Of a stretch of DNA of 63,743 bases, positions 7,862-30,008 are shown piece by piece. The stretch's first letter is position 1, and every line of letters begins with the position of its first letter. The stretch comes from Betaproteobacteria bacterium. Lineage in GTDB: Bacteria; Pseudomonadota; Gammaproteobacteria; Burkholderiales; Rhodocyclaceae. The stretch is from positions 1-63,743 of the forward strand of contig JACQYA010000088.1 of assembly GCA_016208425.1 (NCBI GenBank). The letters run 5' to 3'. Below the pieces are notes generated by a model. That model was not told where the DNA came from and did no database searches. It was given only the letters and a program-made list of their open reading frames with translations. A program made the position numbers and the translations under genes.

Positions 7862-7873
7862 CAATCTCTCCCT

Positions 7874-13143: not shown

Positions 13144-13822
13144 GGAAATGCAGCTTGTCGCGGCTGGCCGGGCGAAGACCTACGCCGTTCTGGCGGCGCT
13201 CTACTCAGCGCCGCCGACGGAAGAACTGGCGGCAACCATTCGCGCCGGCGGTCTGACCACTGAAGGTGGCTCCCGTCTGGCCGATGCCACCGACGCGCTG
13301 ACGGCGTGTTTTCGGCAAATGTCCGCAGACGGTGTTTCTGTCAATGATCTTGCCGCCGAGTACACCCATGTGTTCGTGTTGCCCTCCGGCGTGACGCCGC
13401 ATGAGTCGTACTATGCGGACGAGAACCGGCGCATCGGCGGTCATGTTACCGCTGCCGTAAAGAGCTACTACGATGCGGCGGCGGCTCAGTTGACAGAGGC
13501 CTGCCTCGAACTCCCGGACCACATGGGTGTGGAATTCGAGTTCATGAAATTTCTCTGCGATATCGAGGCGCAGCTCTGGCAGGAGCCGGATCGGGACGGA
13601 CTGCGGCGCTGCCTGACGTTCCAAAGCGGTTTTCTCGCCGACCACTTGTTGCGCTGGCATCGCGCCTTGGGCGAGAAAATCATCGACGTAAGCAATCTGG
13701 CTCTGTACCGGGCGCTGGCTCGCCTCAGCATCGAGTTTCTTGAGGCGGAGCGGACATTCGTGCCCGAATTGACCACAGAAATTTGTTCCGAAGGGAGAAC
13801 AGCATGTTTGTCCGAATCGTGA
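13130..13822 (+). CDS. TorD/DmsD-family molybdoenzyme chaperone
   Basis: This 230-residue all-helical protein has the TorD-family pattern LAALYSAPPTEEL, YTHVFVLPSGVTPHESYY, then LPDHMGVEFEFMKFLCDIE. Such chaperones bind the Tat signal of a molybdoenzyme and hold it until the cofactor is inserted. GTG 13130 is chosen because GGAGG lies 7 nt upstream at 13118-13122. It presumably serves the TtrA-like enzyme; a second, different chaperone (22684) sits with the type II enzyme. It overlaps the preceding and following genes, supporting one operon. Confidence 0.88.
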   Translation: MSSSREMQLVAAGRAKTYAVLAALYSAPPTEELAATIRAGGLTTEGGSRLADATDALTACFRQMSADGVSVNDLAAEYTHVFVLPSGVTPHESYYADENRRIGGHVTAAVKSYYDAAAAQLTEACLELPDHMGVEFEFMKFLCDIEAQLWQEPDRDGLRRCLTFQSGFLADHLLRWHRALGEKIIDVSNLALYRALARLSIEFLEAERTFVPELTTEICSEGRTACLSES

Positions 13823-14370
13823 CCGCAGCATTTCTGGGACTTGCCTCGACTGCCTGTCCGGCACAGGCGATCCAGTCACCCATCGATTGGCCGCCCAAGG
13901 CCGTAGCCAAGCCGCTAACGGGCACAGTGCCGGACTTCAAGGTGAAGAACCAGCTCTGCCTCGACTGCCACAAGGAAATCATGGAGGTTCAGACAGCGCG
14001 CAAGAATATTCCCAATCCGCACCGCCTGCATCTGGAATCGAAGAAGATCGCCTACGAGGGCAAGAACCGCGATTGCCTGGTCTGCCACGAGATGGTCGTT
14101 CCTTCCGAGACCAAGGCGAAGAAGAAGGAAGGCTGGTTCGTCAAGGGCGATGTCTATCACCCCAACGTCTTGCAGAATCCGCGGGAAGTATGGAAGAAGC
14201 TGGTGGTGCGTTCCGGCGAGGGCGCCCAATACGTCCAGGTCGAGGCGTTGCGCCAAGCCGATCCCCATCCCTACAAGCCCACGCTGAAGCGTCTCGTTTG
14301 CGCCGAGTGCCACGGCCCTGACAGCAAGATCAAGACCTTCTACGGCGCGCCGGTTCAGAAAGCCGGTTGA
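13804..14370 (+). CDS. Periplasmic triheme c-type cytochrome
   Basis: This 188-residue protein has a signal peptide (cleavage near PAQA) and three CxxCH heme motifs: CLDCH, CLVCH and CAECH. Between the second and third motifs is a ~75-residue segment with several candidate distal His (YHPN, PHPY). I do not recognise a named family; no CxxCK or NrfA-like features are present. GAAGGGAG before ATG 13804 supports the start. It lies between the chaperone and a large outer-membrane barrel gene that overlaps its stop region, suggesting a periplasmic electron carrier for the reductase or an exchange point near the outer membrane (inference). Confidence 0.85.
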   Translation: MFVRIVTAAFLGLASTACPAQAIQSPIDWPPKAVAKPLTGTVPDFKVKNQLCLDCHKEIMEVQTARKNIPNPHRLHLESKKIAYEGKNRDCLVCHEMVVPSETKAKKKEGWFVKGDVYHPNVLQNPREVWKKLVVRSGEGAQYVQVEALRQADPHPYKPTLKRLVCAECHGPDSKIKTFYGAPVQKAG

Positions 14371-14381
14371 AGGGGCTTATC

Positions 14382-16151
14382 TTGAAAAATTCTTCCAGGG
14401 TTTGGTTGCCCGGCGCGATTGCCAGCATCTTGGCCGTCGGCGGTGTTCACGCCGCGCCGCCGGCAGCCGGAAAATTGGCCAAGGCGGGCGACGCGCAGGC
14501 CGAAATCCTGCGCCGCTTGCAGGATCTGGAAGCGCAGGTCGCCCAGTTTAAGGCGGAGACCGCGCGCTTGCAGGCCGAGCTTGACGGCCGCACCCCGGCG
14601 GAAAATCGGCCCGCGCGGGATGGTTCCAGGGTGGCTCAGGCGTCGAAAGGCGGGGCGGACGATTGGGGCGACCCCGAGGTCGCCAGGAAACCCGAAGGGC
14701 GCGACGAGGAAGCGCGCCGGCGCCTGCTCGCGCTGGAAACCCAGGCGCGGAAAAATACGGCGGAAGCCGTCAAGCGGGAAGAAGAACGGAAGGACAAGGT
14801 TCAGTTCGACTTTTCCGGCAAATACAAGGCGCAAATCAATTCGCGCCACAACTTTAATCTGGGCAATCCGCTCCAGGAGTGGAAGTTCGACAATGCCTCC
14901 TTCGTCGATCACCGTTTCTCGTTGCAGATCGACGCGACCTACGAGGCCATGCTGGCGCGGCTGGTGCTCGACAAGGGCAACTTCACCCCGGACTGGAAAG
15001 AGGATAGCGAGGGCACGCTGGAGCGCTGGGGGAGTTTCCAAACCTTGAGTTCCGAACTGGTGCGCGAGCTGTTCGTCCAATACACCGGCCCCTTCGTGGT
15101 TCGGGCCGGGCGGCAGAATTGGGATGTGGCGCAGAAAATCGTTCTCGAAGGGCCGATGGACGGCATTCGCCTCCAGTATCCCGTGGGCCAGTTGCCGTGG
15201 GGCCGCACCACCTTGTCGGCCGGTTATATGGCGGTCTCCGGCGGCTGGAACAGTTATAACAATTTCAACGCGACGGGCGGGCGCCTGGGCGGCAACCGCC
15301 AGGAAATATTTGGCGCTTCCAACAAGCTGGATGCCTGGTACGCGGATCTCGACATCCGCGCTGCCAAGGGCTTGCGTTTTCAGCCGTATCTATTGAAGGT
15401 GGTCGACCGGGGCGCAGCCGGCGACGCCGATCTGAACCTGGACAAGGATTTCAATGCGGCGACCATGCCTCGGGACGGCCATTTCCGCCCCTTGTGGACA
15501 GGCATCGCGGCGTCGACGGATTTCGCGCCCTGGAAATTCGACGCGGAGGCCGTCCTGCTGACCGGCGACTACACGGCGAACCGCAAGCTGCGCGCCAATG
15601 CGCTACAGGTGAAGGCCGCGCGCGACTTCGGCAAGGTCGCTTCCCTGGGGAATGTCTCTAGCGGCTTGCAGTTCGGTCGCGGGTCGGGCAACGGGACGGG
15701 CACCACCGGCGCGATGCGCGACTTCAGTGCGCTGTTCATGTGCCGCGAGCGGAATAAATTCGGAAAAATCTTCAGTGAGGACATCCGCGCCGGTTACTAC
15801 TTTAACGACAGTAACCTCGCCAACATCACCTATCTGCGCCTGGAGTCGAAATTCGAACCGCGTCAGGGCTTGAAGCTGACCCCGTCGGTGACGCGCATCT
15901 GGACGACCAGCGAGGTGTTCGCCGGTCGCGGCCCGGTGTCCGACTGGAGCCAGGGGACGGCTACTTCCACCCAGAAGACACGGGATGTCGGTTGGGAAAT
16001 GGATCTCGATGTGGCTTTCCCGATTTACAAACGCCTCGACGGATTCTTCTCCCTCGGCTATTTCCGACCAGGCGCCGTCTATGCACGGCCGGATGGCAGC
16101 AAGCCAAAGGCAGCCTTAGAAGCGGTGCTCGGCGGCGAATTCAAATTCTGA
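14382..16151 (+). CDS. Outer-membrane beta-barrel with N-terminal coiled coil
   Basis: This 589-residue protein has a signal peptide, a heptad-rich segment (AEILRRLQDLEAQVAQFKAE, then RRRLLALETQARKNT), and a ~400-residue beta-barrel with alternating aromatic strands that ends in GGEFKF, a typical terminal-F outer-membrane signal. VRAGRQNWDVAQKIVLEGP recalls alginate-export-type barrels. TTG 14382, 6 nt after AAGGGG, is preferred to TTG 14367, which overlaps the upstream stop. It directly follows the triheme cytochrome, but there is no MtrA-like decaheme, so a classical porin-cytochrome conduit is not evident. A substrate channel is equally possible. Confidence 0.8.
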   Translation: MKNSSRVWLPGAIASILAVGGVHAAPPAAGKLAKAGDAQAEILRRLQDLEAQVAQFKAETARLQAELDGRTPAENRPARDGSRVAQASKGGADDWGDPEVARKPEGRDEEARRRLLALETQARKNTAEAVKREEERKDKVQFDFSGKYKAQINSRHNFNLGNPLQEWKFDNASFVDHRFSLQIDATYEAMLARLVLDKGNFTPDWKEDSEGTLERWGSFQTLSSELVRELFVQYTGPFVVRAGRQNWDVAQKIVLEGPMDGIRLQYPVGQLPWGRTTLSAGYMAVSGGWNSYNNFNATGGRLGGNRQEIFGASNKLDAWYADLDIRAAKGLRFQPYLLKVVDRGAAGDADLNLDKDFNAATMPRDGHFRPLWTGIAASTDFAPWKFDAEAVLLTGDYTANRKLRANALQVKAARDFGKVASLGNVSSGLQFGRGSGNGTGTTGAMRDFSALFMCRERNKFGKIFSEDIRAGYYFNDSNLANITYLRLESKFEPRQGLKLTPSVTRIWTTSEVFAGRGPVSDWSQGTATSTQKTRDVGWEMDLDVAFPIYKRLDGFFSLGYFRPGAVYARPDGSKPKAALEAVLGGEFKF

Positions 16152-16161: not shown

Positions 16162-16521
16162 ATGCGGCGGACGATGTCTTTCCTTCTGTTCTGCTCTTTG
16201 GCGGGCCAGCCCGGCCAGCCGGTAGCCGCGCAGTCCGCGTCGCCGGCCGTGAATATCCGCTCCGAACAGCTATGTACCGAGCGGCCGCCTTCTCTTTATG
16301 GTTTTCATGCCGAAGTCTCAGAAATCTCTGAATTCGCCCAACCCCTGCGTTTCGAGTGGGATCTGGGCGACGGCGCACGTTGGTACGGAGCCGAAGTGCC
16401 GGAGCACGCTTACGATTTCGGCCGTTACAACGTGATATTGGCCGTGACGGATGCCGATGGAAGGGCGCGGCGAGCCAGCCTGTCGCTCAACGTAGAAGCC
16501 AAGGGATGCGGCGGGATTTGA
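16162..16521 (+). CDS. Small secreted PKD-domain protein
   Basis: This 119-residue protein has a signal peptide followed by one PKD-like immunoglobulin fold (FEWDLGDGARWYGAEVPEHAY, then YNVILAVTDADGRARRASLS). It ends in EAKGCGGI. The neighbouring FecR-like protein carries a related PKD domain and ends in EADCGC, so the two may be paralogous in their C-terminal halves. ATG 16162 or 16174 could start it; no strong ribosome binding site is present. The function is unknown; PKD domains usually mediate extracytoplasmic protein contacts. Confidence 0.75.
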   Translation: MRRTMSFLLFCSLAGQPGQPVAAQSASPAVNIRSEQLCTERPPSLYGFHAEVSEISEFAQPLRFEWDLGDGARWYGAEVPEHAYDFGRYNVILAVTDADGRARRASLSLNVEAKGCGGI

Positions 16522-16553: not shown

Positions 16554-17477
16554 ATGAAATACGCGGCGATGTTTTTTTTCCTGCTTTGGAGTGCGCTTGG
16601 CCGGGCCGACGAGGAGTCGAGCGTGCGCATCTCGCAAAGCGATGGAACTGTCGAAATCGTCAAGGGAAGCGGTGCAGCAAAGCAGGTCAAGGAAGGCGAC
16701 GCGATCGAGCGTGGCGACAGGCTCCTCGTCCGCGACAAGTCCGCCGCTCTGCTCATGTGGTCGAACGGCAGCATGGTCAAGGTCTATCCCAATAGCGAGA
16801 TCGCTTTGGCGGGCGTCTCTTTCGATCTGGAAAAAAAGATGGAGAAGACCCTCGTGGATCTTGAAAAAGGGCGCATTTTCGTCAAGGCGCAGGTGCCCGA
16901 ACACCTCTTCTCGGAATTCAGGGTGCGTATTGGCGGACTCGATTTGCGTACGCAGGGCGCGGAGTTCGCCCTGGCCTACGATGCGGAAAAGAAAAGCGTC
17001 ACGGCATGGTCATTGATGGGCCGCCTGGTGGCCGATGTGGGGGTCGAGCGCCTGCGCATCGACGACGGCCAGCAGGCAACGATCGCCGCCGCCGGCAAGC
17101 CGGGCGCGTCGCAGGCTCTAGACGACAAGGTGAAACAGTCCCTGACCAAGACCTCCCGCGATCTGGGCGGCAGCCTGCTGCAGGACGAGAGCGCCGGGGC
17201 GTCGGGCGGCAAGCTCGCGGCAAAGATCGGCGGCGTGGCGGCACGGCGCGGCAGCACGCCTTTCAAGGTGGGTTTCAAGGCCGCGATCAAGGGTGGTAGC
17301 GGGAAGATCAAGTCCATCGCCTGGGATTTCGGCGATGGGGAAAGCGCCTCGACAAAAGACGTGGAGCACACCTTCACTCAGGGCTTGTACGTGGTGATCC
17401 TGCGCGTGGAGGATGAAAACGGCGAAAAAGCCTCGGCGCAAACGGGCATTTCGGTGGAAGCCGACTGCGGCTGCTGA
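16554..17477 (+). CDS. FecR-like periplasmic protein with C-terminal PKD domain
   Basis: This 307-residue protein has a signal peptide (MKYAAMFFFLLWSALGRA), a FecR-like domain (LLVRDKSAALLMWSNGSMVK, then LEKGRIFVK and TQGAEFALAYD) and a C-terminal PKD domain (IAWDFGDGESASTKDVEHTF). It ends with two cysteines (EADCGC). FecR domains usually signal to anti-sigma/sigma pairs or act as structural periplasmic sensors, but no ECF sigma factor is nearby. The start at 16554 follows from the signal peptide. It may help assemble or anchor the surrounding cytochromes and barrel, which is conjecture. Confidence 0.8.
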   Translation: MKYAAMFFFLLWSALGRADEESSVRISQSDGTVEIVKGSGAAKQVKEGDAIERGDRLLVRDKSAALLMWSNGSMVKVYPNSEIALAGVSFDLEKKMEKTLVDLEKGRIFVKAQVPEHLFSEFRVRIGGLDLRTQGAEFALAYDAEKKSVTAWSLMGRLVADVGVERLRIDDGQQATIAAAGKPGASQALDDKVKQSLTKTSRDLGGSLLQDESAGASGGKLAAKIGGVAARRGSTPFKVGFKAAIKGGSGKIKSIAWDFGDGESASTKDVEHTFTQGLYVVILRVEDENGEKASAQTGISVEADCGC

Positions 17478-17519: not shown

Positions 17520-18212
17520 ATGACGCGAACCCTGCTGTGCGTCCTGGGAGCAGTTGCCTTGTCGGGCGCGGCGAATGCCGCACCGGAATATGTCGGCGTT
17601 AAAGTCTGCACCAAGTGCCACGAGGCTCAAGGCGAATCCTGGGCGGGCACCTCGCACGCCAAGGCATTGGACTCCCTGAAGCCGAACGTCAAGGCGGAAG
17701 AGAAGAAGAAGGCCAGGCTCGATCCGGCCAAGGATTACACCAAGGACAAGGACTGTGTCGGTTGCCACAGCACCGGTTTCGGCCTGGCCGGCGGGCATGC
17801 GGTCGGCAAGGAGCCGGGCGGCGCGGCGGCGCTGGGGACGGTGGGTTGCGAGTCATGCCACGGTCCCGGCGGTGTTTACCGCGACCAGCATAGCAAGGCG
17901 GAAAAGAAACTGAAGCAGACCTCCGAGGCGACGCCGCGCAAGACCTTGGTCGCCGACGGTCAGAACTTCGACTACGAGAAGGCCTGCGCCACCTGTCACC
18001 TGAACTTCAAGGGATCGCCACACAAGGCAGCCAAGGCGCCGTTTACGCCCTTCACGCCGGATGTCGATGCCAAGTACAAATTCGAGTTCGGCAAGGCAGT
18101 GAAGGCGCAAGCCCTGCATGAGCACTACAAGCTGAAGGGCGTATTCACGGGTGACCCGCTACCGGCGGTGCGCGCAGAGTTCCAGAAGAACGCCAAAGAG
18201 ATTCCAGAATGA
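17520..18212 (+). CDS. Tetraheme cytochrome c554-like protein
   Basis: This 230-residue protein has a signal peptide and four CxxCH motifs (CTKCH, CVGCH, CESCH, CATCH) in a cytochrome c554-like layout: YVGVKVCTKCHEAQGESWAGTSHA near the N-terminus, then GCHSTGFG and GCESCHGPGG. ATG 17520 with AGGAGA 5 nt upstream is clearly better than the GTG at 17493. It overlaps the NapC/NirT gene by ATGA, so the two are probably made together. It probably acts as a periplasmic electron carrier between the quinol-oxidising NapC/NirT protein and one or both molybdoenzymes. Confidence 0.9.
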   Translation: MTRTLLCVLGAVALSGAANAAPEYVGVKVCTKCHEAQGESWAGTSHAKALDSLKPNVKAEEKKKARLDPAKDYTKDKDCVGCHSTGFGLAGGHAVGKEPGGAAALGTVGCESCHGPGGVYRDQHSKAEKKLKQTSEATPRKTLVADGQNFDYEKACATCHLNFKGSPHKAAKAPFTPFTPDVDAKYKFEFGKAVKAQALHEHYKLKGVFTGDPLPAVRAEFQKNAKEIPE

Positions 18213-18871
18213 GCGACGAAAATCTCCCGCCACCCGTCCCGCCCCTGCCGGCCTCTACGCCGGATGCCGGCAGGCATCCGGGCCGAGTCGGCCGCCTCTG
18301 GGCAACGCTACGGCGGCCGAGCGCCCGCTATTCGGCGCTCGGCATTGTCGTGGCGGGTTTTGCCTCTGGCATCGTCTTCTGGGGCGGCTTCAATACTGCC
18401 ATGGAAGCCACCAACCAGTTGGAATTCTGCATTTCCTGCCACGAGATGCAGAGCACCGTGTACCAGGAATACAAGCAGACGATCCACTACGCCAACCGCA
18501 CCGGCGTGCGCGCGGTCTGCTCCGACTGCCACGTGCCGAAGGACTGGCTGCACAAGATGGCGCGCAAAATCCAGGCTTCCGGCGAGATCTACGGCAAAGC
18601 CATGGGCACCATCGATACGCCGGAGAAGTTCGAGGCCAAGCGACTGGAACTCGCGCAGCACGAATGGGATCGCATGAAGGCCAGCGATTCGCGCGAATGT
18701 CGCAATTGCCACAGCTTCGATGGCATGTCCAAGGACGCGCAGACGGACACCGCCTGGCGGCGGCACAAGGGCGCCATCAAGAAGGGCGAGACCTGCATCG
18801 ACTGCCACAAGGGCATTGCCCACAAAGAGCCTGGCGGCGCGAAAAAAGAGAAGAGCAAGGAAGAAGGCTGA
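18209..18871 (+). CDS. NapC/NirT-family membrane tetraheme cytochrome c
   Basis: This 220-residue protein has one N-terminal membrane helix (residues ~43-65, [19 protein letters not shown]) and four CxxCH motifs (CISCH, CSDCH, CRNCH, CIDCH) in the NapC/NirT pattern [10 protein letters not shown]...[11 protein letters not shown]. Proteins of this family oxidise menaquinol or ubiquinol and pass electrons to periplasmic reductases. It overlaps the c554-like gene by 4 nt and precedes the type II enzyme operon. It can replace the missing NrfD-type quinol dehydrogenase of the TtrA-like enzyme. The tail is Lys/Glu-rich and unremarkable. Confidence 0.93.
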
Positions 18872-18947: not shown

Positions 18948-21695
18948 ATGAACATTTCCGACGACGACAATGGCCGCCGCAGGTTTTTGCAGGCTTCCGG
19001 TGCGGTGTTGGCCAGCATGGCTACGCCGGGTAGCGTGTGGGCTTTCGCCAAAATCCAGCCCAATTACGACCCGCTCAAAGAGTATCCCTACCGGAGCTGG
19101 GAAGACCTCTACCGCAAGGAATGGGCGTGGGATTCGGTGGGCTTCACCACCCATGCCATCGGCTGCGTGGCCGGTTGCGCCTGGAAGGTCTACGTCAAGA
19201 ACGGCATGCCCATGCGCGACGAGCAGGTCAACGAGTACCCGCAACTGCCGGGCATCCCCGACATGAACCCGCGTGGCTGTCAAAAAGGGGCTGTGTATTG
19301 CTCGTGGTCGAAGCAGCCGGACCATCTCAAGTGGCCGCTGAAGCGCGTCGGCGAGCGGGGTTCGCGCAAGTGGAGGCGTATCTCCTGGAACGAGGCGCTC
19401 ACCGAAATTGCCGACAAGATCATCGACACCACCGTCAAGCGCGGGCCGGGCAATATCTGCATTCCGAAGCGTCCCTTCGCGGTCATCAGCAGCACCGCGT
19501 ATACGCGGCTGGCGAACCTCCTGGGGGGCATCAAGCCGGACGTTTCCTCGATGACCGGCGACCTCTATCCCGGCATCCACACGGTGCGCGTCCCGGCGCG
19601 TACGTTATCGACTTTCGACGACTGGTTCACGTCCGACCTCATCCTGATGTGGCACAAGAACCCGATCGTCACGCGCATGCCCGACGCACACTTCCTGATG
19701 GAAGCGCGCTACAACGGTGCCCGGCTGGTCAACATCTCCTGCGACTACAACCCCTCGTCGATCCACGCCGACCTGTTCGTGCCGGTGAAGATGGGCACGG
19801 ACTCCTATCTCGCCGCAGCGATCGTTAACCAGCTCATCGCCGGCAAGCACTACAAGGCGGATTACCTGAAGGAGCAGACCGATCTGCCCTTCCTGGTGCG
19901 CGCCGACAACGGCAAATTCCTGCGCGAGAAGGACTTCAAGGCGGACGGCAGCGACGAAGTCTTCTACGTCTGGGATAGCAAGTCCGGCAAGGCCGTGCCG
20001 GCCCCCGGCAGCATGGGCAGCAAGGACAAGACCCTGAAGTTCGGCACGGTCGATCCGGCGCTGGAAGGCGCCTTCGAGGCGGATGGCGTCAAGGTCACGA
20101 CCGTCTTCGAGCGTTTGAAGGCGGCGATTGCGCCCTTCACGCCGGAAGCCACCCAAGCCGAATCCGGCGTGCATCCCTCGGTGGTGCGGCAACTCGTCGA
20201 ATGGATCGCCAAGTCCAAGGCCATGCGCATCCTCGATGGCTACAACAACCAGAAGCACATGGACGGTTTCCAGTGCGGACGCTTGAAGATGCTGATCCTG
20301 ACCCTGATCGGTCATCACGGCACCACTGGCTCCCTGGATACCACTTATGAGGGCTGGATCCTGGAAGGGAACTCGGAACTCGGCGCGTTCAAGGGCAAGC
20401 CGGGGCGCAGCGTCTCGATGGTGCTGGCTCAGTGGGTATGGGGCGAGCAATACCGGCGCGCGAAGGCCTACTACGACGATGTCCAGTTGAAGGCGATGGT
20501 CGGTTTCGGCGTCGACGACATGGAGGCTTTGCGCAAGGAATCGGAAGCGAAGGGCTGGATGCCCAAGTGGCAATCCATCAAGGATCCGGTGGTCTACATC
20601 AACGCTGGCATCAACCTCTTCGCCACATCCAACGGCTACTCGCATCTGCGCGAGAACTTCCTCAAGCGCTGCGAGCTGCTGGTCAACGTGGATTTCCGCA
20701 TGAACTCCGGCTGCATGTATTCCGACATCGTGCTGCCCTGCGCCGAGAACATCGAGAAGCTGGATATTCGCGAAACCTCGGTGACGCGCTTCATCCATAC
20801 CTTCGGCCAGGCAGTCAAGCCCATGTACGAGCGCAAGACCGACTGGGAAATCAACGTGGAACTAGCCAGGAAGATCCAGGAGCGGGCCATTGCCCGCAGC
20901 GTCACCCGGGTGGATGACCCGGAGATCAAGAGCGCCATTGACTTCAATACCTTCTACGACGACTTCACCATGAACGGCAAGATCGTCAGCGACGAGCAGG
21001 CTCTGAGATTCGTCATGGAGCGATCGAAAGCGCTGGGTCCGGGCAGCTACGAGGAAGCGATGAAGAAGGGGTTTGTTGGCGTGGGGCCGTCTGCTGGCAA
21101 GACCGCCCCGGTTCCCAAAGACAAGCCCTACCGTCCCTTCACGATCAACGTCACGGACAAGATCCCTTACAAGACCTTGACCGGGCGCTTACAGTTCTAT
21201 GTAGACCACGACTGGTTCCAGCGCTTCGACGCCACCGTGCCCAAGCCCCAGGTCAAGGGCGGCGGCATGCTGGGGCCGAAGCAATATCCCTTCAAGTACA
21301 GCTCGCCGCACACCCGTTGGGGCGTCCACTCTTTTGCGCGCACCTCGGAGTGGATGCTGCGGCACCAGCGCGGCGAGCCGGACATCCGGCTCAGCCCGAA
21401 GGCCATGGCGAAAAAGGGCATCAAGGACGGCGACATGGTGCGCATCTTCAACTCGTCGGGCGAGTTCTTCGCCACGGCCAAGTCCTGGCCCTCGCTGCCC
21501 GACGACGTGCTGTTTACCGAGCATGGCTGGGAGCAGTATCTCTACAAGAACATGACCCACTACAACAACGTCAACTCGGAGCTGATTAATCCGCTGGAAC
21601 TGGTGGGCGGCTACGGTCACATCAAGTTCGCTGCTGCGGCGTTCAATCCGAACCGCATCTTTTATGAGACGACGGTCGACGTCGAGAAAGCTTGA
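18948..21695 (+). CDS. Type II DMSO-reductase-family molybdopterin subunit (alpha)
   Basis: This 915-residue protein has a Tat motif (RRRFLQA, residues 10-16) and the type II FeS ligand set H69-x3-C73-x3-C77-x33-C111. The conserved molybdenum-ligating aspartate is probably D205 in [23 protein letters not shown] and [15 protein letters not shown] are typical of the SerA/ClrA/PcrA/DdhA/EbdA/S25dA group (TIGR03479). The family includes selenate, chlorate and perchlorate reductases as well as ethylbenzene and steroid-C25 dehydrogenases; the sequence alone does not separate these. AAAGGAAA precedes ATG 18948. It heads an alpha-beta-chaperone-gamma set, the order used by serABDC, clrABDC and ddhABDC. 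Confidence 0.92.
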
Positions 21696-21706
21696 GGATA
21701 CCTACC

Positions 21707-22687
21707 ATGAGTAAAAGACAGTTGGCCTACGTATTCGATCTGAACAAGTGCATCGGCTGCCATACCTGCACCATGGCCTGCAAGACCCTGTGGACTGACC
21801 GGGGCGGACGCGAGTACATGTACTGGAACAACGTGGAAACCCATCCCGGCAGGGGTTACCCGATGAACTGGCAGCAAAAAGGCGGCGGTTTCAAGAATGG
21901 CGTATTGCAGACGGATGGCAAGATCCCGCCCATGGAAGCTTACGGCGCCGCCTGGAAATACAATTTTGCCGAGACCCTGCTGGAGGGCAAGTCGGATCGA
22001 GTCGTACCTCATGAGAAGCCGACCTATGGGCCGAACTGGGACGAGGACGAGGGTGCCGGCGAGTTTCCCAACAGCCGCTATTTCTATCTGCCGCGCATCT
22101 GCAACCACTGCTCCAACCCGGCCTGCCTGGCGGCCTGCCCGAACAAAGCGATCTACAAGCGGGAGGAAGATGGATTGGTCGTCATCGACCAGGAGCGTTG
22201 CCGGGGTTACCGCTATTGCGTCAAGGCCTGTCCCTACGGCAAGGTGTATTTCAATCTGCAAACCCAAAAGTCCGAGAAATGTATCGGCTGTTATCCGCGC
22301 GTCGAGAAGGGCGAGGCGCCGGCTTGCGTCAAGCAGTGTACGGGTCGCATCCGTTTCTGGGGTTATCGCGACGACAAGAACGGCCCGATCCACAAGCTGG
22401 TGGATCAGTGGAAAATCGCCCTGCCATTGCATGCTGAATATGGCACGCAGCCCAACGTGTTTTACGTGCCGCCGATGAACGTCACGCCGCCGCCGTTCGA
22501 GGAGGATGGGCGTCTTTCCAGCGCGCCGCGCATTCCGATTGCCGACATCGAGGCGCTGTTCGGTCCCCGCACGAAGGAGGCGCTGGACACACTGGGGCGC
22601 GAGATGCAGAAGCGTCGCGAAGCCAAACCCTCGGAACTGACGGATATCCTGATCGGCTTCACGAACAAGGACAGGTACGGAATATGA
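21707..22687 (+). CDS. Type II DMSO-reductase-family iron-sulfur subunit (beta)
   Basis: This 326-residue protein has four FeS clusters: [41 protein letters not shown] (aromatic residue in place of a cysteine, as in NarH/SerB/EbdB, giving a [3Fe-4S] cluster) and [20 protein letters not shown]. The N-terminus [18 protein letters not shown] matches TIGR03478 beta subunits. ATG 21707 is chosen. It is co-exported by the alpha subunit's Tat signal and passes electrons between the heme b gamma subunit and the alpha-subunit cluster. It overlaps the chaperone gene by 4 nt. Confidence 0.94.
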
Positions 22688-23265
22688 GCGGGCCAACTGT
22701 GAAAGCGGACACCTTGGGCGGGGCCTACCTGGCGATGGCGAAGCTTTTCTCATACCCGACCCCGCAAACCTGGCAACAGTTGACGGAGCAAGGAATTGTC
22801 GATCCCACGCTGACACAGGAGACACTGGAAGCCGAGTATCTTGCGGCCTTCGAGGTCGGGCGCGACAGTTCTCCCGCACCACTGTTCGAGGGCATGCATC
22901 GCGAGGACTCGGGGCGGGATGGAATCCTGCAAGACCTGCTGCGATTTTACGAGTTCTTCGATACGAAGCTCTCCACAACCGACCGGGAATATCCAGACCA
23001 TCTTGTGACGGAACTGGAGTTTCTCGCCTGGCTGTGCATGCAGGAACAGGCGGTGGAAAACAAGGGAGGCGACGCAGAGTCCTTCCGCCGCGCGCAGCGG
23101 GATTTCATCACCCGCCACGTTGCAGCATGGCTGCCGGTGTTTCGCCGGCGGCTGGAGGCGACGGATACCGCCTATTCGCAGTATGGCTTGGCGCTGGCCG
23201 AACTGGTGGAAGCTCACCGCGGCCGGCTCGGCAACGAAACGCAAGAATCGGGAGGCAACACATGA
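22684..23265 (+). CDS. Type II enzyme chaperone (TorD-like, delta)
   Basis: This 193-residue helical protein fits the type II DMSO-reductase chaperone family (TIGR03482): [20 protein letters not shown], then [20 protein letters not shown] and a long helical C-terminus. Unlike the canonical TorD at 13130 it lacks the TPHESYY motif. It is translationally coupled at both ends (ATGA with beta, ATGA-type with gamma). The product stays in the cytoplasm and is not part of the mature enzyme. Confidence 0.88.
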
Positions 23266-23981
23266 ACAACAGCACTCTGATGAAGCAATTGGCGGCAATT
23301 GGCATGGTTGCCTTGACTGCTGCGACGGCCAGCCTCGCGGCAAGCGCCGCGCTGGCCGCTCCCACAGCCAAAACGATCCAGGTCATGTCTGTAAAAGATG
23401 GGGATGCTGCTTCGCCACAGGCCGCCATCTGGGAAAAGGCGCCAGCTGCCCAAGTCGCTTTGCAACCGGCTTTCCCCGGACATAGCTCCATTGTCGGCAC
23501 CCCGGTGACGGAGAAGCTGGTCGCCCAGGCGATCTGCCTGGGCGACCAGCTATATGTGAAGCTGGCTTGGATCGACCGCACAGCCAACACGGTGATCGGG
23601 GATACCAACAAGTTCGCCGATGGTGCGGCGGTGCAGTTTCCAGTGAATGGCAAATCCACCACCACGCCCTTCATGGGGGACGCAAACAATGCCGTGAACG
23701 TATGGCAATGGCGCGCCGATGGACGCACCCAGAACCTGCTTGCCAAGGGCTTTAGCACCGCCATGACGGTGCCTTCCGAGGGACTGAAGAGCGCATCGGT
23801 ACGCACCGACAGCGGTTGGGCGGTTGTTCTGAGCCGACCACTGAAGGTCAAGCCAGACGAGGGCGCCAACCTGTTGGGCAAGAGCACTATGCCCATCGCT
23901 TTTGCCGCATGGGACGGTGAAAACGAGGAACGCGATGGCCTCAAGGCGGTTACGCTGGAGTGGTGGCAGTTGCGTTTCTGA
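23262..23981 (+). CDS. Type II enzyme heme b subunit (gamma)
   Basis: This 239-residue protein has a Sec-type signal peptide and the ethylbenzene-dehydrogenase-like heme-binding beta fold (TIGR03477): [55 protein letters not shown] and [14 protein letters not shown]. Gamma subunits in this family bind one heme b with Met/Lys ligands and exchange electrons with a soluble c-type cytochrome. Here the c554-like or triheme cytochrome could be that partner. The start codon overlaps the chaperone stop. It ends the ABDC set. Confidence 0.9.
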
Positions 23982-23997
23982 TTGTCCTGTAAGGTAA

Positions 23998-24100: not shown

Positions 24101-26464
24101 ATGAAAGCTATTTCTTTATACAAGGCGACGGGATGGTCGCTGGTCGAGTTTTCCATCCGCCGGCCGAAGCTGGTGATGCTGCTGGCGGGGCTGCTAACCT
24201 TAATATTCCTCACCCAGTTTCCGAAGATCCGCACCGACACGAACCCGAAGCACATGTTGCCGGAAACCTCCGACGTGCGGGTGTGGAACGACAAGGTAGA
24301 TAAGACCTTCGCGCTCTACGAGGACACCATCGTCGTGGGCGTGGAAAATGGCGCGAGCGACGCGGGGGTGCTGAATAAGGATACGCTCGGCCGCATCGCC
24401 CGTGTGACCGATGCCATCCTTGCGCTGGAGGGCGTCGCCAGCCGCGATGTCAACGGCTTTACCACCATCACGAACGTGACGGTAGAGGAGGGCACCCTCA
24501 AGGTCGGGCCGCTGATGCCGGCCGCGCCCAAGACCGATGCCGAGGTGGCGAACCTCAAGAGCTCGCTGTTCGGCAACCCGCTGTTCCTCGACCGCATCAT
24601 CTCGCGGGACGGTAAAACCACGGCGATTTACGTACCCCTGGAGAAGGGCGCCAACGGCGCCGAGATCGCCGACAAGATCCGCGACATCGTGGCGAAGGAG
24701 AAGGGCGCCAGCGTGGGAAATGAGCGCTACTACATCGCCGGCGATCCGGTGGCGCGCGACACCTTCGGCGCCGAGATGTTCAAGCTGATGGCGATTTTCT
24801 CGCCGATTGCCGGCGGCATCATGTTCGCGGCGATCCAGTACATGTTCCGCAGTTTGGTTCTGTCGGCGGCCATGATGGGCGTATCGATGGTGGCGATCAT
24901 CTGGAGCATGGGCCTGCTGATTGGCGTCGGTTTCCCGGTGCACATCATGAGTTCCATGGCGCCGGTGTTCCTGATGGCGATTGCCACCGACAGCATCCAC
25001 ATTTTCAACGAGTTCTATTTCCGCTACCGGGAGCAAAGTGGCGACAAGCGCGACAAGCTGATGGCGATCCGCGAAACCATGGCGGCGGTCAGCCGGCCGG
25101 TGCGCTTCACGGCGCTGGCCACGGCAGCCGGTTTTGCCGTGATGCTGTTCATGAACATCATCCCCGTGCAGGTGTTCGGCGGCCTGATCGCCTTTGGCAC
25201 CGTCGTGCTGCGCCTGCTCTCCTTCAGTTTCATTCCGGCGGTGCTCACTTTCGTGCGCGAGGACAAGCTGGCAGCAGCAGCCGGGGACGTGGGCCAGGAT
25301 CGCACGGCGCGCCTGCTGGGGCACCTCGGCGCTTTCGGCGCGATCCGGCCACGCCTGACCGTGGCAGTCGCGGTGGCGCTGGTGGCCGTCTCGGTCTGGG
25401 GCACGTCGAAGATCCATGTCAACAACAATCTGGTGGCCTGGTTCAAGGCCGGCAGCGAGATCCGCGTCGCCGACACGGCGATGAACGCGGCGCTCGGCGG
25501 CACCTCTCTCGGTTACGTGGTGGTCGAGGGTAAGGAAGCAGATTTCATGAAACGGCCCGAGGCCATGCGCTGGCTGGAGGGGCTGCAACGCCATCTGGAA
25601 ACCCTGCCGGTGGTCGGCAAGACTTTCTCGGTTGCCGACTACGTCAAGCGCATCAACCGCGTGTTGCATGAAGACGACGCCAACTACGACATCGTGCCCG
25701 ACACGCAGGACGGGATCGGCCAGTACCTGTTCCTGTTCAGCATGTCGGCCAAGCCCTCGGATCTGGACAACGTGGTCGATCCGACTTTCGCCAAAGCCAA
25801 CCTCTGGGTACAGATGAAGACCTGGGACGCCGATGCGATGCGCCAGGTGAGCGCCGCCGCAGAGGAATACCACAAGGCGCATCCCCTGGCGGCGACCGTG
25901 AAGCCGGCCGGCATCGCCTACTTCAATCTCGTGTGGAACGAGGAGGTGCTGGGCGACCTGGTGCTCGGCCTCGGCCTTGCCTTGGTGGTGGTGCTCGCCA
26001 TCCTGGCCCTGGATTTCCGCTCGTTCAAATGGGCGCTGGTCGCCTACGTACCGCTGTTGCTCACCATCCTGCTCATCTACGGTGTGGTCGGTTTTGCCGG
26101 CAAGGACTTCGACATGCCGCTGTCGGTGATGAGCACGCTGTCGCTGGGCATGGCGGTGGATTTTGCCATCCACTTCGTCAGCCGTTTCCGACAGCGCCGA
26201 GCAGAAGTCGGGGCTGGCGAGACGCCGGCCGAAACGCTGGAAGAAAGCCTGGCCTGGACGGCGGCGCGGCCGGGCAAGGGCATCATGCGCAACGCCATCC
26301 TGTTCGCCGCAGCCTTCTCGGTGATGATGGCGGCGCCACTGACGCCCTACATCGCAGTCGGCGCTTTCATCGTCTCGATGATGCTGCTCTCGGCTCTGCT
26401 GACCCTGATGCTGCTACCGGCGCTGGTCATGCTGGCCCGGCATTTTTTGATCGAGGAGAACTGA
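24101..26464 (+). CDS. RND-superfamily inner-membrane transporter (MMPL/HpnN type)
   Basis: This 787-residue protein has two halves, each with a large periplasmic loop and a group of membrane helices. The N-terminus reads SIRRPKLVMLLAGLLTLIFL, followed by FPKIRTDTNPKHMLPE. The helix with VFLMAIATDSIHIFNEFYF, and its repeat ending GMAVDFAIHFVSRFRQR, carry the intramembrane acidic residues of RND pumps. Such single-gene RND proteins move lipids, hopanoids or hydrophobic compounds. GGAGGGG precedes ATG 24101. The next two genes encode a LolA-like protein and an outer-membrane barrel, a known trio for envelope hydrophobe traffic. The direction of transport is unknown. Confidence 0.9.
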   Translation: MKAISLYKATGWSLVEFSIRRPKLVMLLAGLLTLIFLTQFPKIRTDTNPKHMLPETSDVRVWNDKVDKTFALYEDTIVVGVENGASDAGVLNKDTLGRIARVTDAILALEGVASRDVNGFTTITNVTVEEGTLKVGPLMPAAPKTDAEVANLKSSLFGNPLFLDRIISRDGKTTAIYVPLEKGANGAEIADKIRDIVAKEKGASVGNERYYIAGDPVARDTFGAEMFKLMAIFSPIAGGIMFAAIQYMFRSLVLSAAMMGVSMVAIIWSMGLLIGVGFPVHIMSSMAPVFLMAIATDSIHIFNEFYFRYREQSGDKRDKLMAIRETMAAVSRPVRFTALATAAGFAVMLFMNIIPVQVFGGLIAFGTVVLRLLSFSFIPAVLTFVREDKLAAAAGDVGQDRTARLLGHLGAFGAIRPRLTVAVAVALVAVSVWGTSKIHVNNNLVAWFKAGSEIRVADTAMNAALGGTSLGYVVVEGKEADFMKRPEAMRWLEGLQRHLETLPVVGKTFSVADYVKRINRVLHEDDANYDIVPDTQDGIGQYLFLFSMSAKPSDLDNVVDPTFAKANLWVQMKTWDADAMRQVSAAAEEYHKAHPLAATVKPAGIAYFNLVWNEEVLGDLVLGLGLALVVVLAILALDFRSFKWALVAYVPLLLTILLIYGVVGFAGKDFDMPLSVMSTLSLGMAVDFAIHFVSRFRQRRAEVGAGETPAETLEESLAWTAARPGKGIMRNAILFAAAFSVMMAAPLTPYIAVGAFIVSMMLLSALLTLMLLPALVMLARHFLIEEN

Positions 26465-26465
26465 A

Positions 26466-27248
26466 ATGAAACGAATGATCCTGGCTGCACTGCTGGTTCC
26501 CCTGTCGGCGATGGCGCTTACCGGCGAGGAAGCGATACGTAAATCCCAGGCCGCCTTCCTCTATCCGGGCAAGGACTTCAAGGCGCGGGTACTCATGAAA
26601 CTCATCAACCAGGACGGCCAGGAGCGGGTGCGCGAGCTGATGATGCTGCGCAAGAACATCGGCGAGGCGGGTGGCGAGCAGAAGTACTTCATGGTCTTCT
26701 TTCAGCCGAACGACGTTAAGGACATGAGTTTCATGACCTATAAGTACCCGGCCAAGGACGACGACCGCTGGATGTTTATCCCTGCGGTGAACATGGTCAA
26801 GCGCATCGCCGCCCAGGACAAGCGCTCCAGCTTTGTCGGATCGGACTTCACCTACGAGGATGTCTCGGGCCGCGACATCGAGGACGACACCCACGCCGTC
26901 GAACGCGAGGAAAAAGTCGGCGGACGGGACTGCACCGTCGTAAAGAGTACGCCCAAGGCGGGCGACGCGGATTTCGGCAGCAAGCTTACCTGGGTGGACA
27001 AGGCGAATTTCCTGCCGCTGAAGGAGGAGCAGTTCGACCGCAAGGGCGCCCGCTACAAGGAGTTCACCGCCGACGAGGTGGTCGAAGTGAAAGGGTTCCC
27101 GACCGTGGTTCGGCGCACCATGAAGAACCTGCAAACCGGCCATCGCACTGAAGTTGGCTACAGCAAGGTCGACTACGATCTCGGCATCGAGGACAGCCTG
27201 TTTTCAGAACGCTTCCTGCGCCAGCCGCCGCGCAAGTGGGTTGAATAA
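26466..27248 (+). CDS. LolA-like outer-membrane lipoprotein-sorting protein
   Basis: This 260-residue protein has a signal peptide (MKRMILAALLVPLSAMA) and a LolA-like beta-sheet fold. The conserved stretch RWMFIPAVNMVKRI...RSSFVGSDFTYEDVSGRD is diagnostic of the COG2834/PF17131-type sorting protein. It begins 1 nt after the RND stop, so the two are co-translated. In this family the half-barrel binds a hydrophobic ligand in the periplasm. It probably shuttles a lipid or hydrophobic molecule between the RND protein and the barrel encoded next. Confidence 0.88.
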   Translation: MKRMILAALLVPLSAMALTGEEAIRKSQAAFLYPGKDFKARVLMKLINQDGQERVRELMMLRKNIGEAGGEQKYFMVFFQPNDVKDMSFMTYKYPAKDDDRWMFIPAVNMVKRIAAQDKRSSFVGSDFTYEDVSGRDIEDDTHAVEREEKVGGRDCTVVKSTPKAGDADFGSKLTWVDKANFLPLKEEQFDRKGARYKEFTADEVVEVKGFPTVVRRTMKNLQTGHRTEVGYSKVDYDLGIEDSLFSERFLRQPPRKWVE

Positions 27249-27339: not shown

Positions 27340-27342
27340 ATG

Positions 27343-28563
27343 ATGCGCACCCGGACGGCCGTGTGCTGTTTGCTGGCAGCGTTTCCAATGGTGGCGCAGG
27401 CGGACGTCAACCTCTCGGGTTTCATCCAGCAGAACACGGCCTTCAACACCGTCGAGGCCAACCCCGACGGCCGCGACCATAAATGGCTGGAGGAGCGTCT
27501 CCGCTTCCAGCTCGATGCTTCGCAAGGCAACTGGCGCCTGCTGCTGAAGGGCGATGCTGCCTACGACCACCTGGGTCGCGGCGGCCAGTCGGAACTGCGG
27601 GAGGGCTACGCGGACTATGCGGCCGGCAATTGGGATCTGCGCGTCGGCCGCCAGGTGCTCACTTGGGGTCTGGGCGATCTGGTGTTCGTCAACGACGTTT
27701 TTCCGAAGGATCACGAAGCGCTGTTCGCCGGTCGGCCGCTGGAATACCTGAAACGCGGAGCCGACGCTGTGAAGCTTGGCATCTATCCGCAATTCGCCTC
27801 TTTCGAGCTAGTGATCGCGCCGGATTTTCGCGAAAGCCGCATTCCCGACGCGCGGCGCTTTCACCTTTACGACCCGATGCCGATGGTTGCGGATCGCGTG
27901 ACGCAAGCGCCGGGCAAGGGCGATGCCGGCTTGCGCATTTATCGCGACATCGCGGGTTGGGACGCGGCGGTGTACCTCTATCGCGGCTATCAGCGCACGC
28001 CGTCGATGCGGCCGGACAGCATGACAGCCCCGACCCGGATCACGTACTTCTATCCCGAGCTATCGACTCTCGGCGCGAGCCTGTCGGGTCGGGCCGGCGA
28101 GGGCGTGGCAAGTTTCGAGGCGGCTTATTACGATTCGCGCCAGGATCGCGCCGGCACCGATTTCACCGTACCCAATTCCCAGACGCGCCTGTTGGCGGCC
28201 TATCAGTGGCAGCCCTGGGAGGACTTCTCGCTCAACCTGCAATATTACGCCGAGCAGATGCACGGTTACGATGCCTACCGCCTGTCCCTGCCGGAGGGAT
28301 TCCCGGCCGACAAACGCTGGAGCCATACGGCGGCGTTGCGCGCGACGCAGTTCTTTCTGCACCAGACGCTACGCCTGTCAGTGTATGCATCGCGCAACGC
28401 GAGCAACGGCGACTATTTCATCAATCCCGAGTTGCGTTACAGCTTCACCGACAGCGTCTGGGGCGCTCTCGGCGCGAACGTGTTCGGCGGCCAGCCGTGG
28501 GGGCAGTTCGGGCAGTTGTCGCGGGACGACAACGTGTATCTCCAGCTTCGCTACGAATTCTGA
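27343..28563 (+). CDS. Outer-membrane barrel of DUF1302/alginate-export type
   Basis: This 406-residue protein has a signal peptide (cleavage near MVAQA) and continuous amphipathic beta strands, including LRVGRQVLTWGLGDLVFVND, and ends in a terminal F (QLRYEF), as expected for outer-membrane barrels. ATG 27343 is chosen over ATG 27340 because GGAGG (27334-27338) then has a 4-nt spacer. It is the third member of the RND/LolA-like/barrel trio. The substrate is unknown. A second barrel with the same kind of neighbours is encoded at 56891. Confidence 0.85.
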   Translation: MRTRTAVCCLLAAFPMVAQADVNLSGFIQQNTAFNTVEANPDGRDHKWLEERLRFQLDASQGNWRLLLKGDAAYDHLGRGGQSELREGYADYAAGNWDLRVGRQVLTWGLGDLVFVNDVFPKDHEALFAGRPLEYLKRGADAVKLGIYPQFASFELVIAPDFRESRIPDARRFHLYDPMPMVADRVTQAPGKGDAGLRIYRDIAGWDAAVYLYRGYQRTPSMRPDSMTAPTRITYFYPELSTLGASLSGRAGEGVASFEAAYYDSRQDRAGTDFTVPNSQTRLLAAYQWQPWEDFSLNLQYYAEQMHGYDAYRLSLPEGFPADKRWSHTAALRATQFFLHQTLRLSVYASRNASNGDYFINPELRYSFTDSVWGALGANVFGGQPWGQFGQLSRDDNVYLQLRYEF

Positions 28564-28631: not shown

Positions 28632-30008
28632 TTAATAACGGATACTGTAAGCGATGCCGAGGGCGTCCTGCTTCATTTTCAGCGTCTCGGTGCCGCCGAC
28701 GCCGAGCAGCGCCGTGACCGATGGGCCGGTCACCGAGTTGCTGAAAGCGTGCATGTAGGACACCGTCAGATCCGACTTGTTGGACAACGCCCAGGTGGCG
28801 CCCAGCGTGACATGCTGCTCCACCACCCCTGGTGCAAGAATGTTGAAGGTCACGTCGTCGATGGTGTCGCCGCGCACCGGCGATTTTCCGTAGTTGTAAC
28901 CGGCGCGCATCGTGAGGTTCTTGCTGTACTCGTACTCGGCGCCGAGCTTATATACGGTCTGGTTGCGCCATTTGAAGCCGGAGCCGTTGGAATCGCCCAA
29001 ACGGTTGGGCGTCGCCGGGTAAGCTCCGGTCATCATGCTGAGGAGACTGTTGCTGACGCCGTTGGCGATAGACTTCACTCCCGCATAATTGATCTGCTGG
29101 ATGTCGAGAGCGACTGTCGCCTGCGGCGTTACCTTGACGGCTACGCCGATGTTGTAGTTCTCGGGGATGTCGAAGTCCCCCCCTTCGGCGAACAAACCTT
29201 TATATTTTTTGAACTCGCCCATGCGAATCTTCGACGAGTAGGCCGCACCGACCGTCACAGTATCGCTGAACTTGCCCATCCATCCCAGGCGCACGCCCCA
29301 GCCGAAGGCGTCGTCGTAGCCCCTGTTGGTGACATTTCCCTGGCTGCTGGTGAATGTTCCACCGCCTGCGAAACCCAAGGTCTCGTCGTAAGCTTGCAGG
29401 CCGTCGACCTTGAAACGCTGGTAACCGATAAGCGGCGACACGCCGATCGAATGGTTGGCGTTGATTTTGAAGGAAGCCGTCGGCGCAATGATGAGTTGCA
29501 TCAAGTCGACACCCAGCCTGCCGCAGCCAAACAGGATGTTTGCCGGCGCACCTTGGCAGGAAGGCGCAAATGCCTGAGCGCCCGCTCCCCCGTTGAGCCC
29601 CGGGCTGTAGTCGGTATTCATGCCGCCGTTACCATAGACGGTCACACCGAACGAGAGATTCGGATTGATCAGCTTGTTGTAACCGAACTCGGGAACCAGG
29701 AAAATATTCGAGGCGCTTTCGGACGTGCCATCGTAAGCGCCTCCGAAACCGGTGCTGCCCTGACGGCTGGCGCTACGTTTGGGCATGAACACGTCCACGC
29801 CGATATCCAGCCGGTCGCCGACCCAAACCATGCTGGCCGGGTTGTTAGCGCCGCCAAACGTGTCGCTCGTCGTCGCGGTCGCGGCGCCGCCCATGCCCTT
29901 GGCCTTCATGCCGTAGCCGTGGGAAAAATAGCCGTTGGTGGCCAAAGCTATGCCGGGGATGGCCAGGCCGGCCATGACCAACCCATGTACCAATGTTTTT
30001 AGTTTCAT
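28632..30008 (-). CDS. FadL/OmpP1/TodX-family outer-membrane transporter
   Basis: This 458-residue protein has a signal peptide ending ALATNGYFSHGYGMKAKGMGGA, in which the mature N-terminus NGYF...GMKAKGMGGA is the FadL hatch signature; NNPASMVWVG follows. The barrel ends in ...IAYSIRY with an aromatic terminus. FadL proteins admit long-chain fatty acids or aromatic hydrocarbons (TodX, XylN) through the outer membrane. ATG 30008 follows GGAGGAG closely. It converges on the RND/LolA-like/barrel genes. It is the main hint that a hydrophobic compound is handled by this region. Confidence 0.93.
   Translation of the reverse strand: MKLKTLVHGLVMAGLAIPGIALATNGYFSHGYGMKAKGMGGAATATTSDTFGGANNPASMVWVGDRLDIGVDVFMPKRSASRQGSTGFGGAYDGTSESASNIFLVPEFGYNKLINPNLSFGVTVYGNGGMNTDYSPGLNGGAGAQAFAPSCQGAPANILFGCGRLGVDLMQLIIAPTASFKINANHSIGVSPLIGYQRFKVDGLQAYDETLGFAGGGTFTSSQGNVTNRGYDDAFGWGVRLGWMGKFSDTVTVGAAYSSKIRMGEFKKYKGLFAEGGDFDIPENYNIGVAVKVTPQATVALDIQQINYAGVKSIANGVSNSLLSMMTGAYPATPNRLGDSNGSGFKWRNQTVYKLGAEYEYSKNLTMRAGYNYGKSPVRGDTIDDVTFNILAPGVVEQHVTLGATWALSNKSDLTVSYMHAFSNSVTGPSVTALLGVGGTETLKMKQDALGIAYSIRY

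Follow-up and report, generated by a model that had tools for sequence, protein, structure and literature searches.

The operon and its subunits

The window analysed here, that is, the whole 63,743-nucleotide contig JACQYA010000088.1 of a Betaproteobacteria bacterium (assembly GCA_016208425.1), carries at positions 18948-23981 an operon related to those of selenate and chlorate reductases. It consists of four intact open reading frames (ORFs), overlapping or nearly so, in the order alpha-beta-chaperone-gamma:

18948..21695, plus strand: alpha, serA-type, catalytic subunit with molybdenum (Mo)-bis-molybdopterin guanine dinucleotide, 915 amino acids (TIGR03479 above cut-off; 81% identical to ClrA; clade position)
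21707..22687, plus strand: beta, serB-type, with Fe-S cluster motifs, 326 amino acids (TIGR03478 above cut-off)
22684..23265, plus strand: assembly chaperone, serD-type, TorD family, 193 amino acids (TIGR03482 above cut-off)
23262..23981, plus strand: gamma, serC-type, heme b by model name, 239 amino acids (TIGR03477 above cut-off; aligned with ClrC)

Scores against the curated NCBIfam models were 1319.4 bits for alpha (cut-off 984.75), 575.7 for beta (480.7), 166.7 for the chaperone (152.3) and 215.5 for gamma (169.85). With four subfamily cut-offs passed in the gene order of the family, the operon encodes a type II dimethyl sulfoxide (DMSO)-reductase-family enzyme, as an earlier reading made from the sequence alone had proposed on the basis of a gene order shared with selenate and chlorate reductases. 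By eye, the alpha N-terminus holds a signal of the twin-arginine translocation (Tat) type (RRRFLQ), and that of gamma resembles an ordinary signal peptide. The Cys motifs of beta are, by alignment, those of ClrB and of a Sedimenticola homologue (L020; L and G numbers are our handles for loci and genomes).

Phylogenetic placement of the alpha subunit

A tblastn search of 72,556 plasmid records returned two full-length alpha matches, the ClrA proteins of Ideonella and Alicycliphilus, which are 81% identical to the window's alpha end to end; both are annotated as chlorate reductase, with cld, the chlorite dismutase (Cld) gene, nearby. Genome contigs yielded 21 distinct loci at 79-91% identity, two of them from Sedimenticola selenatireducens and none from Thauera. 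Among 395 family genomes, nine carry a serA-type gene at 82% or above, the window's genome counted, and the next full-length match falls to 42%, with partial matches up to 45%. Within its own genome, alpha matches only itself at 1e-100.

Relationships were assessed in a 44-row tree, in which the window falls inside a 24-row SerA/ClrA clade (support 100/100) that is monophyletic against PcrA, NarG and other type II sequences. The 24 rows comprise the window, 20 genome loci, the two plasmid ClrA and L045; the sequence of L045 is identical to that of L027, and L018 and L020 come from one organism. L026, whose frame is broken by 6 stops, stands outside both the tree and the residue counts, EbdA stands outside the tree as a piece of sequence only, and SerA of Thauera selenatis, DdhA, CmdA, AhyA and S25dA lie outside the tree and the comparisons. 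The window belongs to a 14-row subclade (96/91) together with its closest relative, L025 (91% identity). A five-row subclade (L018, L021, L024, L030 and L031; 100/100) holds both cld-linked ClrA and leaves the window outside, and a third subclade of five rows includes L020 and L029 (92/98). PcrA sits in a separate 100/100 clade, far from the window's alpha (35% identity). A long-branch warning was raised for NarG, L058 and L034, all outside the 24-row clade.

By sequence relationship, then, alpha is close kin of known selenate and chlorate reductases and a member of the SerA/ClrA clade. The sequence-only reading had held that nesting within one characterised clade with the same active-site residues would take away the enzyme's novelty, and this is what we found for the SerA/ClrA clade, of which ClrA is a characterised member. 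The enzyme is a new member of the SerA/ClrA kind, and the locus is a variant with a second molybdoenzyme.

Two side observations concern related alpha genes. A separate type II alpha clade, at 39-42% identity to the window's alpha and with no characterised member in the 44-row tree, comprises L035 (G001:C139:24524-27160), L049, L050 and L063-L066. In G001 one contig carries L035 together with the methyltransferase, TtrA-like and serA-type genes described below, so that three molybdoenzymes share a region; L035-type contigs also carry an RND gene in G313 and G429, and the methyltransferase in G313. The alpha gene L026 (658-3373), from a metagenome-assembled genome (MAG) of Burkholderiales, shows its 6 stops in the frame taken, by assembly error or decay.

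Active site of alpha

The Mo-ligand motif ([11 protein letters not shown]) spans residues 202-212, with ligand D205 aligned with EbdA D223 and PcrA D170. An Asp at these positions is the Mo ligand in the family. GDLYPG is the signature of the SerA/ClrA clade, and the window's motif departs from the commonest clade form at H211 alone, where 19 of the 24 rows have Q; the earlier impression that this region matches neither the oxyanion nor the hydrocarbon group therefore does not hold. Residues S201, M202, G204-Y207, G209, T212, Y432, N434-H437, D439 and G440 are invariant in all 24 clade rows, as is the pocket-side R175; K174 is present in 22 rows, with Q in the other two. In the alignment, K174 of the window stands where EbdA has H192, K436 where EbdA has K450, and V199-S200 where PcrA has the pair F164-Y165. 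Judged by these aligned positions, the pocket is of the SerA/ClrA type with basic residues, and neither of the PcrA nor of the EbdA type. An AlphaFold model of alpha built on a 21-row alignment was of poor quality, having a mean pLDDT (predicted local distance difference test) of 55.7, with residues 199-226 and 430-471 under 50.

A probable selenate reductase

Using model PF06778, we found no Cld in the window's own genome, which is 96.24% complete, and no cld within the stretches fetched for L009-L029. Genomes of 20 relatives carrying the clade include four with Cld and 16 without, and in all four the Cld contig differs from the contig of the serA-type gene. G061 has a gene of the PcrA clade on its Cld contig (L036; the assembly is the same as G001), and the Cld stretches of G079 and G070, which resemble a perchlorate operon, show matches to genes for a TorD-type chaperone and cytochromes. 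Chlorate is an unlikely substrate, since this 96%-complete genome has no Cld and the window's alpha falls outside the group with cld-linked ClrA. The published identity between SerA and ClrA, 83.6% (PMC12724226), is about that between the window's alpha and ClrA (81%). S. selenatireducens grows with selenate, and its two genes were grouped by the authors with ClrA and T. selenatis SerA (PMC5052931). We consider that the operon probably encodes a SerABC-type periplasmic respiratory selenate reductase, selenate being the predicted substrate.

Two cytochrome genes lie directly upstream:

18209..18871, plus strand: NapC/NirT-type tetraheme cytochrome, likely quinol donor (PF03264; 4 CXXCH)
17520..18212, plus strand: cytochrome c554-type tetraheme protein (PF13435; 4 CXXCH)

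The gap between the NapC-type gene and alpha is 76 bases. A promoter and terminator scan of 17400-28700 gave no clear excess over shuffles (1 vs 2.5; 12 vs 10.8). The sequence-only reading had seen in the multiheme cytochromes a sign of a respiratory role, and the NapC-type and c554-type proteins (four CXXCH each), together with a 3-haem protein at 13804, agree with it. In the mechanism that we propose, the folded alpha-beta pair would leave the cytoplasm through the Tat pathway, aided by the chaperone, and would join the heme b gamma subunit in the periplasm. Electrons would be drawn from quinol via the NapC-type cytochrome and/or other c-type haems, and would pass from the gamma heme b through the beta Fe-S clusters and the alpha [4Fe-4S] cluster to Mo, where selenate would be reduced to selenite by two electrons.

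A second molybdoenzyme in a conserved island

Upstream of the cytochrome genes lies a second molybdoenzyme with its own set of partners:

8353..11286, plus strand: second molybdoenzyme, TtrA/SrdA-like, with a Tat-type signal by eye (Cys aligned at the Mo-ligand position)
11297..11914, plus strand: TtrB-like Fe-S subunit of the second molybdoenzyme, named by eye (77-91% in island loci)
11950..13143, plus strand: ferredoxin-like protein with several 4Fe-4S motifs (PF12838, PF00037)
13148..13822, plus strand: TorD-like chaperone of the second molybdoenzyme, named by eye (homologues in island loci)
13804..14370, plus strand: 3-haem c-type cytochrome (PF14537; 3 CXXCH)
14367..16151, plus strand: outer-membrane barrel, Alginate_exp type (PF13372; conserved in the island)
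16162..16521, plus strand: small PKD-like protein, named by eye and outside the family search (homologues in several island loci)
16554..17477, plus strand: protein with FecR and PKD domains (PF04773, PF18911; conserved in the island)

The best model for the second molybdoenzyme was TtrA, at 349 bits against a cut-off of 1750 (PRK14991 equivalog, not passed), a strict threshold that two TtrA-type proteins, at 1185 and 1173 bits, also miss. Its identity to four TtrA-type proteins is 28-33%, and no NrfD-type membrane anchor was seen by eye in the gene set.

The ten upstream genes stand in the order TtrA-like, TtrB-like, ferredoxin, TorD-like, 3-haem cytochrome, barrel, PKD, FecR-PKD, c554 and NapC, an order that recurs in L009, L010, L012, L014 (without PKD and NapC), L015 and L028, with TtrA cut or lost at the end of the stretch in some of these loci. 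Among the 395 family genomes, nine carry the TtrA-like enzyme at 83% or above, and seven of these nine carry the serA-type gene (Fisher p 4.6e-12, uncorrected for relatedness); two serA-type carriers lack it (G254, G361) and two genomes have it with no serA-type gene (G127, G211). The 20 clade-carrying genomes, a sample that overlaps with the 395, include ten with the enzyme at 78% or above, on the alpha contig in nine and on a separate 7.8 kb contig in the tenth (G078); two further genomes hold more distant TtrA-type proteins (32-35%). The remaining ten of the 20 lack it, G076 of the closest relative L025 among them, so the reductase does not require it in every case. No match at 60% or above was found in the plasmids. 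The Ttr module can also stand alone, since G211 has it with no SerA/ClrA-clade gene; there, at L095 (G211:C155), the module lies with the X-S-R sensor genes described below.

On contig NZ_KE386614.1 of S. selenatireducens, homologues of most island genes lie between 108 and 144 kb, in the order NapC, c554, FecR, barrel, cytochrome, Fe-S, TtrB, TtrA, RND, LolA, barrel, and then gamma, chaperone, beta, alpha, X, S, R and FadL. Neither Sedimenticola stretch showed the TorD-like or the PKD gene. Most of the set is present in S. hydrogenitrophicus, in another order and with the Fe-S gene also not found, and all of it in a Rhodoferax MAG, again in another order. As a side observation, two PKD-type proteins (16162-17477) lie within this respiratory island, the FecR one being kept in Sedimenticola as well.

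In published trees the TtrA clade includes the selenate reductase SrdA together with an arsenate reductase from an archaeon, and SrrA, a selenite reductase, groups with PsrA/PhsA (PMC7331816, PMC10100899). As a first guess, we favour selenite as the candidate substrate of the TtrA-like enzyme: its gene accompanies the serA-type gene without taking its place, and it comes with electron-transfer proteins of its own. Selenate (as a second selenate reductase), tetrathionate and arsenate are candidates too. This raises the tentative idea, which we hold to be possible and rather doubtful, of a two-step selenium respiration island: SerABC would produce selenite, the TtrA-like enzyme with its Fe-S subunit, chaperone and cytochromes would reduce it to elemental selenium in the periplasm, X-S-R would control both, and the barrels and RND-LolA would handle the product or the envelope. 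If true, the island would give Gram-negative selenate respirers a linked respiratory selenite reductase. As a pollutant, selenate is mobile; how these organisms complete the step from selenite to selenium is poorly settled, and in Enterobacter cloacae a separate system carries it out (PMC12724226). The TtrA-like gene, found mostly in serA-type carriers and lying with the ser genes on one contig in a cultured selenate respirer, is a concrete gene for a functional test. A search of open-access literature, by titles and abstract beginnings among the matches listed, showed none on this two-enzyme island; most subscription papers lie outside that scope. The part of the Sedimenticola genome paper covered here names NapA, NarG, two Clr/Ser genes and one Pcr gene, with the TtrA-like gene not among them (PMC5052931).

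The window's own genome also contains seven further loci with Mo domains (L001-L005, L007, L008). Four were scored: L002 passes NapA, and L005, L007 and L008 have PhsA as best model, under its cut-off. These genes lie on G000:C128 and other contigs, and the NapA-type nitrate reductase is cut by a contig end.

Sensor genes and neighbours in relatives

Divergent to the TtrA-like gene lies a three-gene set, X-S-R:

7007..7864, minus strand: PhnD-like periplasmic binding protein, sensor X (PF12974; adjoins alpha or the TtrA-like gene in relatives)
5559..7010, minus strand: sensor histidine kinase S, named by eye (conserved with X and R)
4222..5667, minus strand: sigma-54-type response regulator R, named by eye and with an uncertain ORF start (conserved with X and S)

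The same divergent arrangement is seen in L095, L096 and L097 (R past the end of L097), and the set stands beside alpha in L018, L020, L023, L024, L025 and L029. In name and make-up it resembles aioXSR, arxXSR and arrXSR (PMC6549141); by analogy, X-S-R may sense an oxyanion signal for both molybdoenzymes.

Further neighbour families near alpha or the TtrA-like gene were obtained by ORF clustering after masking the known window genes, with one representative of each named. An S-adenosylmethionine (SAM) methyltransferase occurs in seven loci (L013, L018, L019, L020, L025, the L028 contig and L029), and others are ArsR-rhodanese, Cys desulfurase-type, MoaA, a Cys/Met pyridoxal phosphate (PLP) enzyme, MFS and, in three loci, DsrE. 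The SAM methyltransferase, Cys desulfurase-type, Cys/Met PLP, rhodanese and DsrE flanks would fit selenium or sulfur chemistry. The methyltransferase is found in 15 of the 20 clade-carrying genomes at E 1e-15, on the alpha contig in at least seven (G061, G062, G065, G070, G076, G079 and G080). At 1e-30 it is found in eight of 287 family genomes, four with the serA-type gene (G001, G084, G254 and G313) and four showing none. In T. selenatis the methyltransferase SefB is reported beside the selenium-sphere protein SefA (PMC3975340).

Downstream envelope genes

The operon is followed by envelope genes, with a fourth gene converging on them:

24101..26464, plus strand: RND/MMPL transporter (PF03176)
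26466..27248, plus strand: LolA-like periplasmic carrier (PF17131)
27340..28563, plus strand: outer-membrane barrel (matches Wzi and DUF1302 weakly, in both cases below cut-off)
28632..30008, minus strand: FadL/TodX-type outer-membrane channel, loosely linked (PF03349)

The sequence-only reading described this arrangement correctly, with genes running on into RND, LolA-like and barrel on the same strand and a converging FadL/TodX protein. It also took it for a context expected of ethylbenzene- or steroid-type hydroxylases, and that part fails: homologues of all four share the reductase contig in the selenate-using S. selenatireducens, as they do in S. hydrogenitrophicus and the Rhodoferax MAG, so these genes are no argument for a hydrocarbon substrate. 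The RND-LolA-barrel set is also found close to alpha in L016, and in L026 an RND gene comes directly after gamma. The window's RND protein shares 40% identity with its counterpart in each Sedimenticola and 75% with that of Rhodoferax.

Co-occurrence of RND with the serA-type gene has a Fisher p of 1.5e-8, uncorrected for relatedness. Its standing as an exclusive partner is weakened, as 12 of the 395 genomes carry it at 67% or above and six of them are serA-type carriers; in these six it lies on the alpha contig in three (G000, G084, G382), on another contig in one (G361) and beside a different type II enzyme in two (G313, G429). FadL was rejected as a specific island member: six genomes have it at 71% or above, the window's included, and two carry the serA-type gene. 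Separately, a second envelope set seen by eye at 56891-61940 on the minus strand (ABC ATPase, FtsX-type permease, LolA-like protein and barrel) is alike in kind to RND-LolA-barrel at 24101-28563.

Alternative substrates

Several observations weigh against selenate as the substrate. The MAG of the closest relative L025 (G076) holds a Cld 80% identical to that of Alicycliphilus, so this relative may use chlorate. The contig with that Cld (L098, G076:C296) is 4.8 kb long and also holds, by eye, a P-type ATPase and a sigma factor; no clr, ser or pcr genes were seen on it. Within the ClrA subclade, cld occurs in the stretch only in L030 and L031; the other three of its five rows (L018, L021, L024) have none in the stretch examined, and the genomes of L021 and L024 (G072, G075) lack Cld. 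The subclade is thus not purely one of chlorate reductases, and tree position alone does not decide the substrate. At 80% identity, sequence cannot separate a selenate from a chlorate reductase. T. selenatis SerA, the defining member, stands outside the comparison set. S. selenatireducens also uses chlorate, with peptone (PMC5052931), and its second gene falls in the subclade of ClrA, leaving it unproven which of the two serves selenate in that organism. Finally, the methyltransferase of 15 of the 20 relatives' genomes was not found in the window's. A chlorate reductase, ClrABC, would agree with the 81% identity, the shared gene order and the Alicycliphilus-kind Cld of the closest relative. 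It is nevertheless improbable, given a genome lacking cld where both plasmids have it near clrA, the position of the window outside the subclade with both cld-linked ClrA, and the clr-type neighbours cytochrome c and mobB, which of the stretches L009-L031 only L030 and L031 showed.

A wider reading would keep the enzyme in the same clade and give it another oxyanion (tellurate, bromate, nitrate, antimonate or similar) as its natural substrate, with selenate incidental. The family's oxyanion reductases vary widely in substrate (PMC7331816, PMC10100899), and X-S-R is similar to the sensor sets aio/arx/arr known from arsenic systems (PMC6549141); of the clade's named members, some carry a chlorate reductase annotation and the others come from a strain that uses selenate, and relatives have chalcogen-handling neighbours, so we find this rather unlikely. 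A dimethyl sulfide (DMS) dehydrogenase-like enzyme working as an oxidase would share the gene order, and is very unlikely for a protein 81% identical to a reductase and nested in that reductase's clade. Least of all do we expect an enzyme of the EbdA, S25dA or CmdA kind, hydroxylating a hydrocarbon, steroid or terpene under anaerobic conditions, for which the RND, LolA, barrel and FadL genes nearby and the Lys kept at the EbdA K450 position might be cited. The EbdA, B, C and D equivalog models scored far under cut-off (419.7 vs 2000, 420.2 vs 740, 69 vs 400 and 61.1 vs 360 bits), the EbdA catalytic His position (H192) is K174 in the window, identity is 37% to the EbdA piece against 81% to ClrA, homologous neighbours lie on the reductase contig of a selenate-using strain, and FadL homologues are common (86 of 395 family genomes); a hydroxylase was rejected on models, catalytic position, identity and conserved context. 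The conserved gene set may also allow selenate and chlorate reductases to be distinguished by their neighbouring genes, where identity alone fails.

Comparison with known systems

ClrABDC of Ideonella dechloratans and Alicycliphilus denitrificans BC shares the gene order, with 81% identity in alpha, 80% in beta, 63% in the chaperone and 64% in gamma, and has the same active-site motif but for one or two positions. It is plasmid-borne, near insertion sequences and cld (in Ideonella one insertion-sequence gene lies between cld and clrA), and is followed by a c-type cytochrome and mobB, whereas the window has no Cld, NapC and multihaem cytochromes upstream, and a second molybdoenzyme. PcrA and EbdA share the type II architecture and the Asp ligand, and differ in identity (35% and 37%) and, for PcrA, in its separate 100/100 clade. 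The second enzyme is like TtrA (SrdA clade) in its best model, Tat-type signal, ligand-position Cys and TtrB-like partner, and unlike it in identity (28-33%), model score (349 vs 1750 bits) and the NrfD-type anchor, none being seen by eye.

Electrons reach the Ser enzyme of Thauera selenatis reportedly through quinol-cytochrome c reductase and cytochrome c4, where the window instead has an adjacent NapC gene. That enzyme's operon is serABDC (PMC5052931, PMC12724226). Two S. selenatireducens genes, A3GODRAFT_03351 and A3GODRAFT_02603, which we take to be L020 and L018 from the grouping given in the genome paper (PMC5052931), are 79 and 81% identical to the window in alpha. That organism differs in its shuffled island order, in having two ser/clr-type operons against one, and in the TorD-like and PKD genes, not found there; at L020 it resembles the window in carrying most island genes on one contig.

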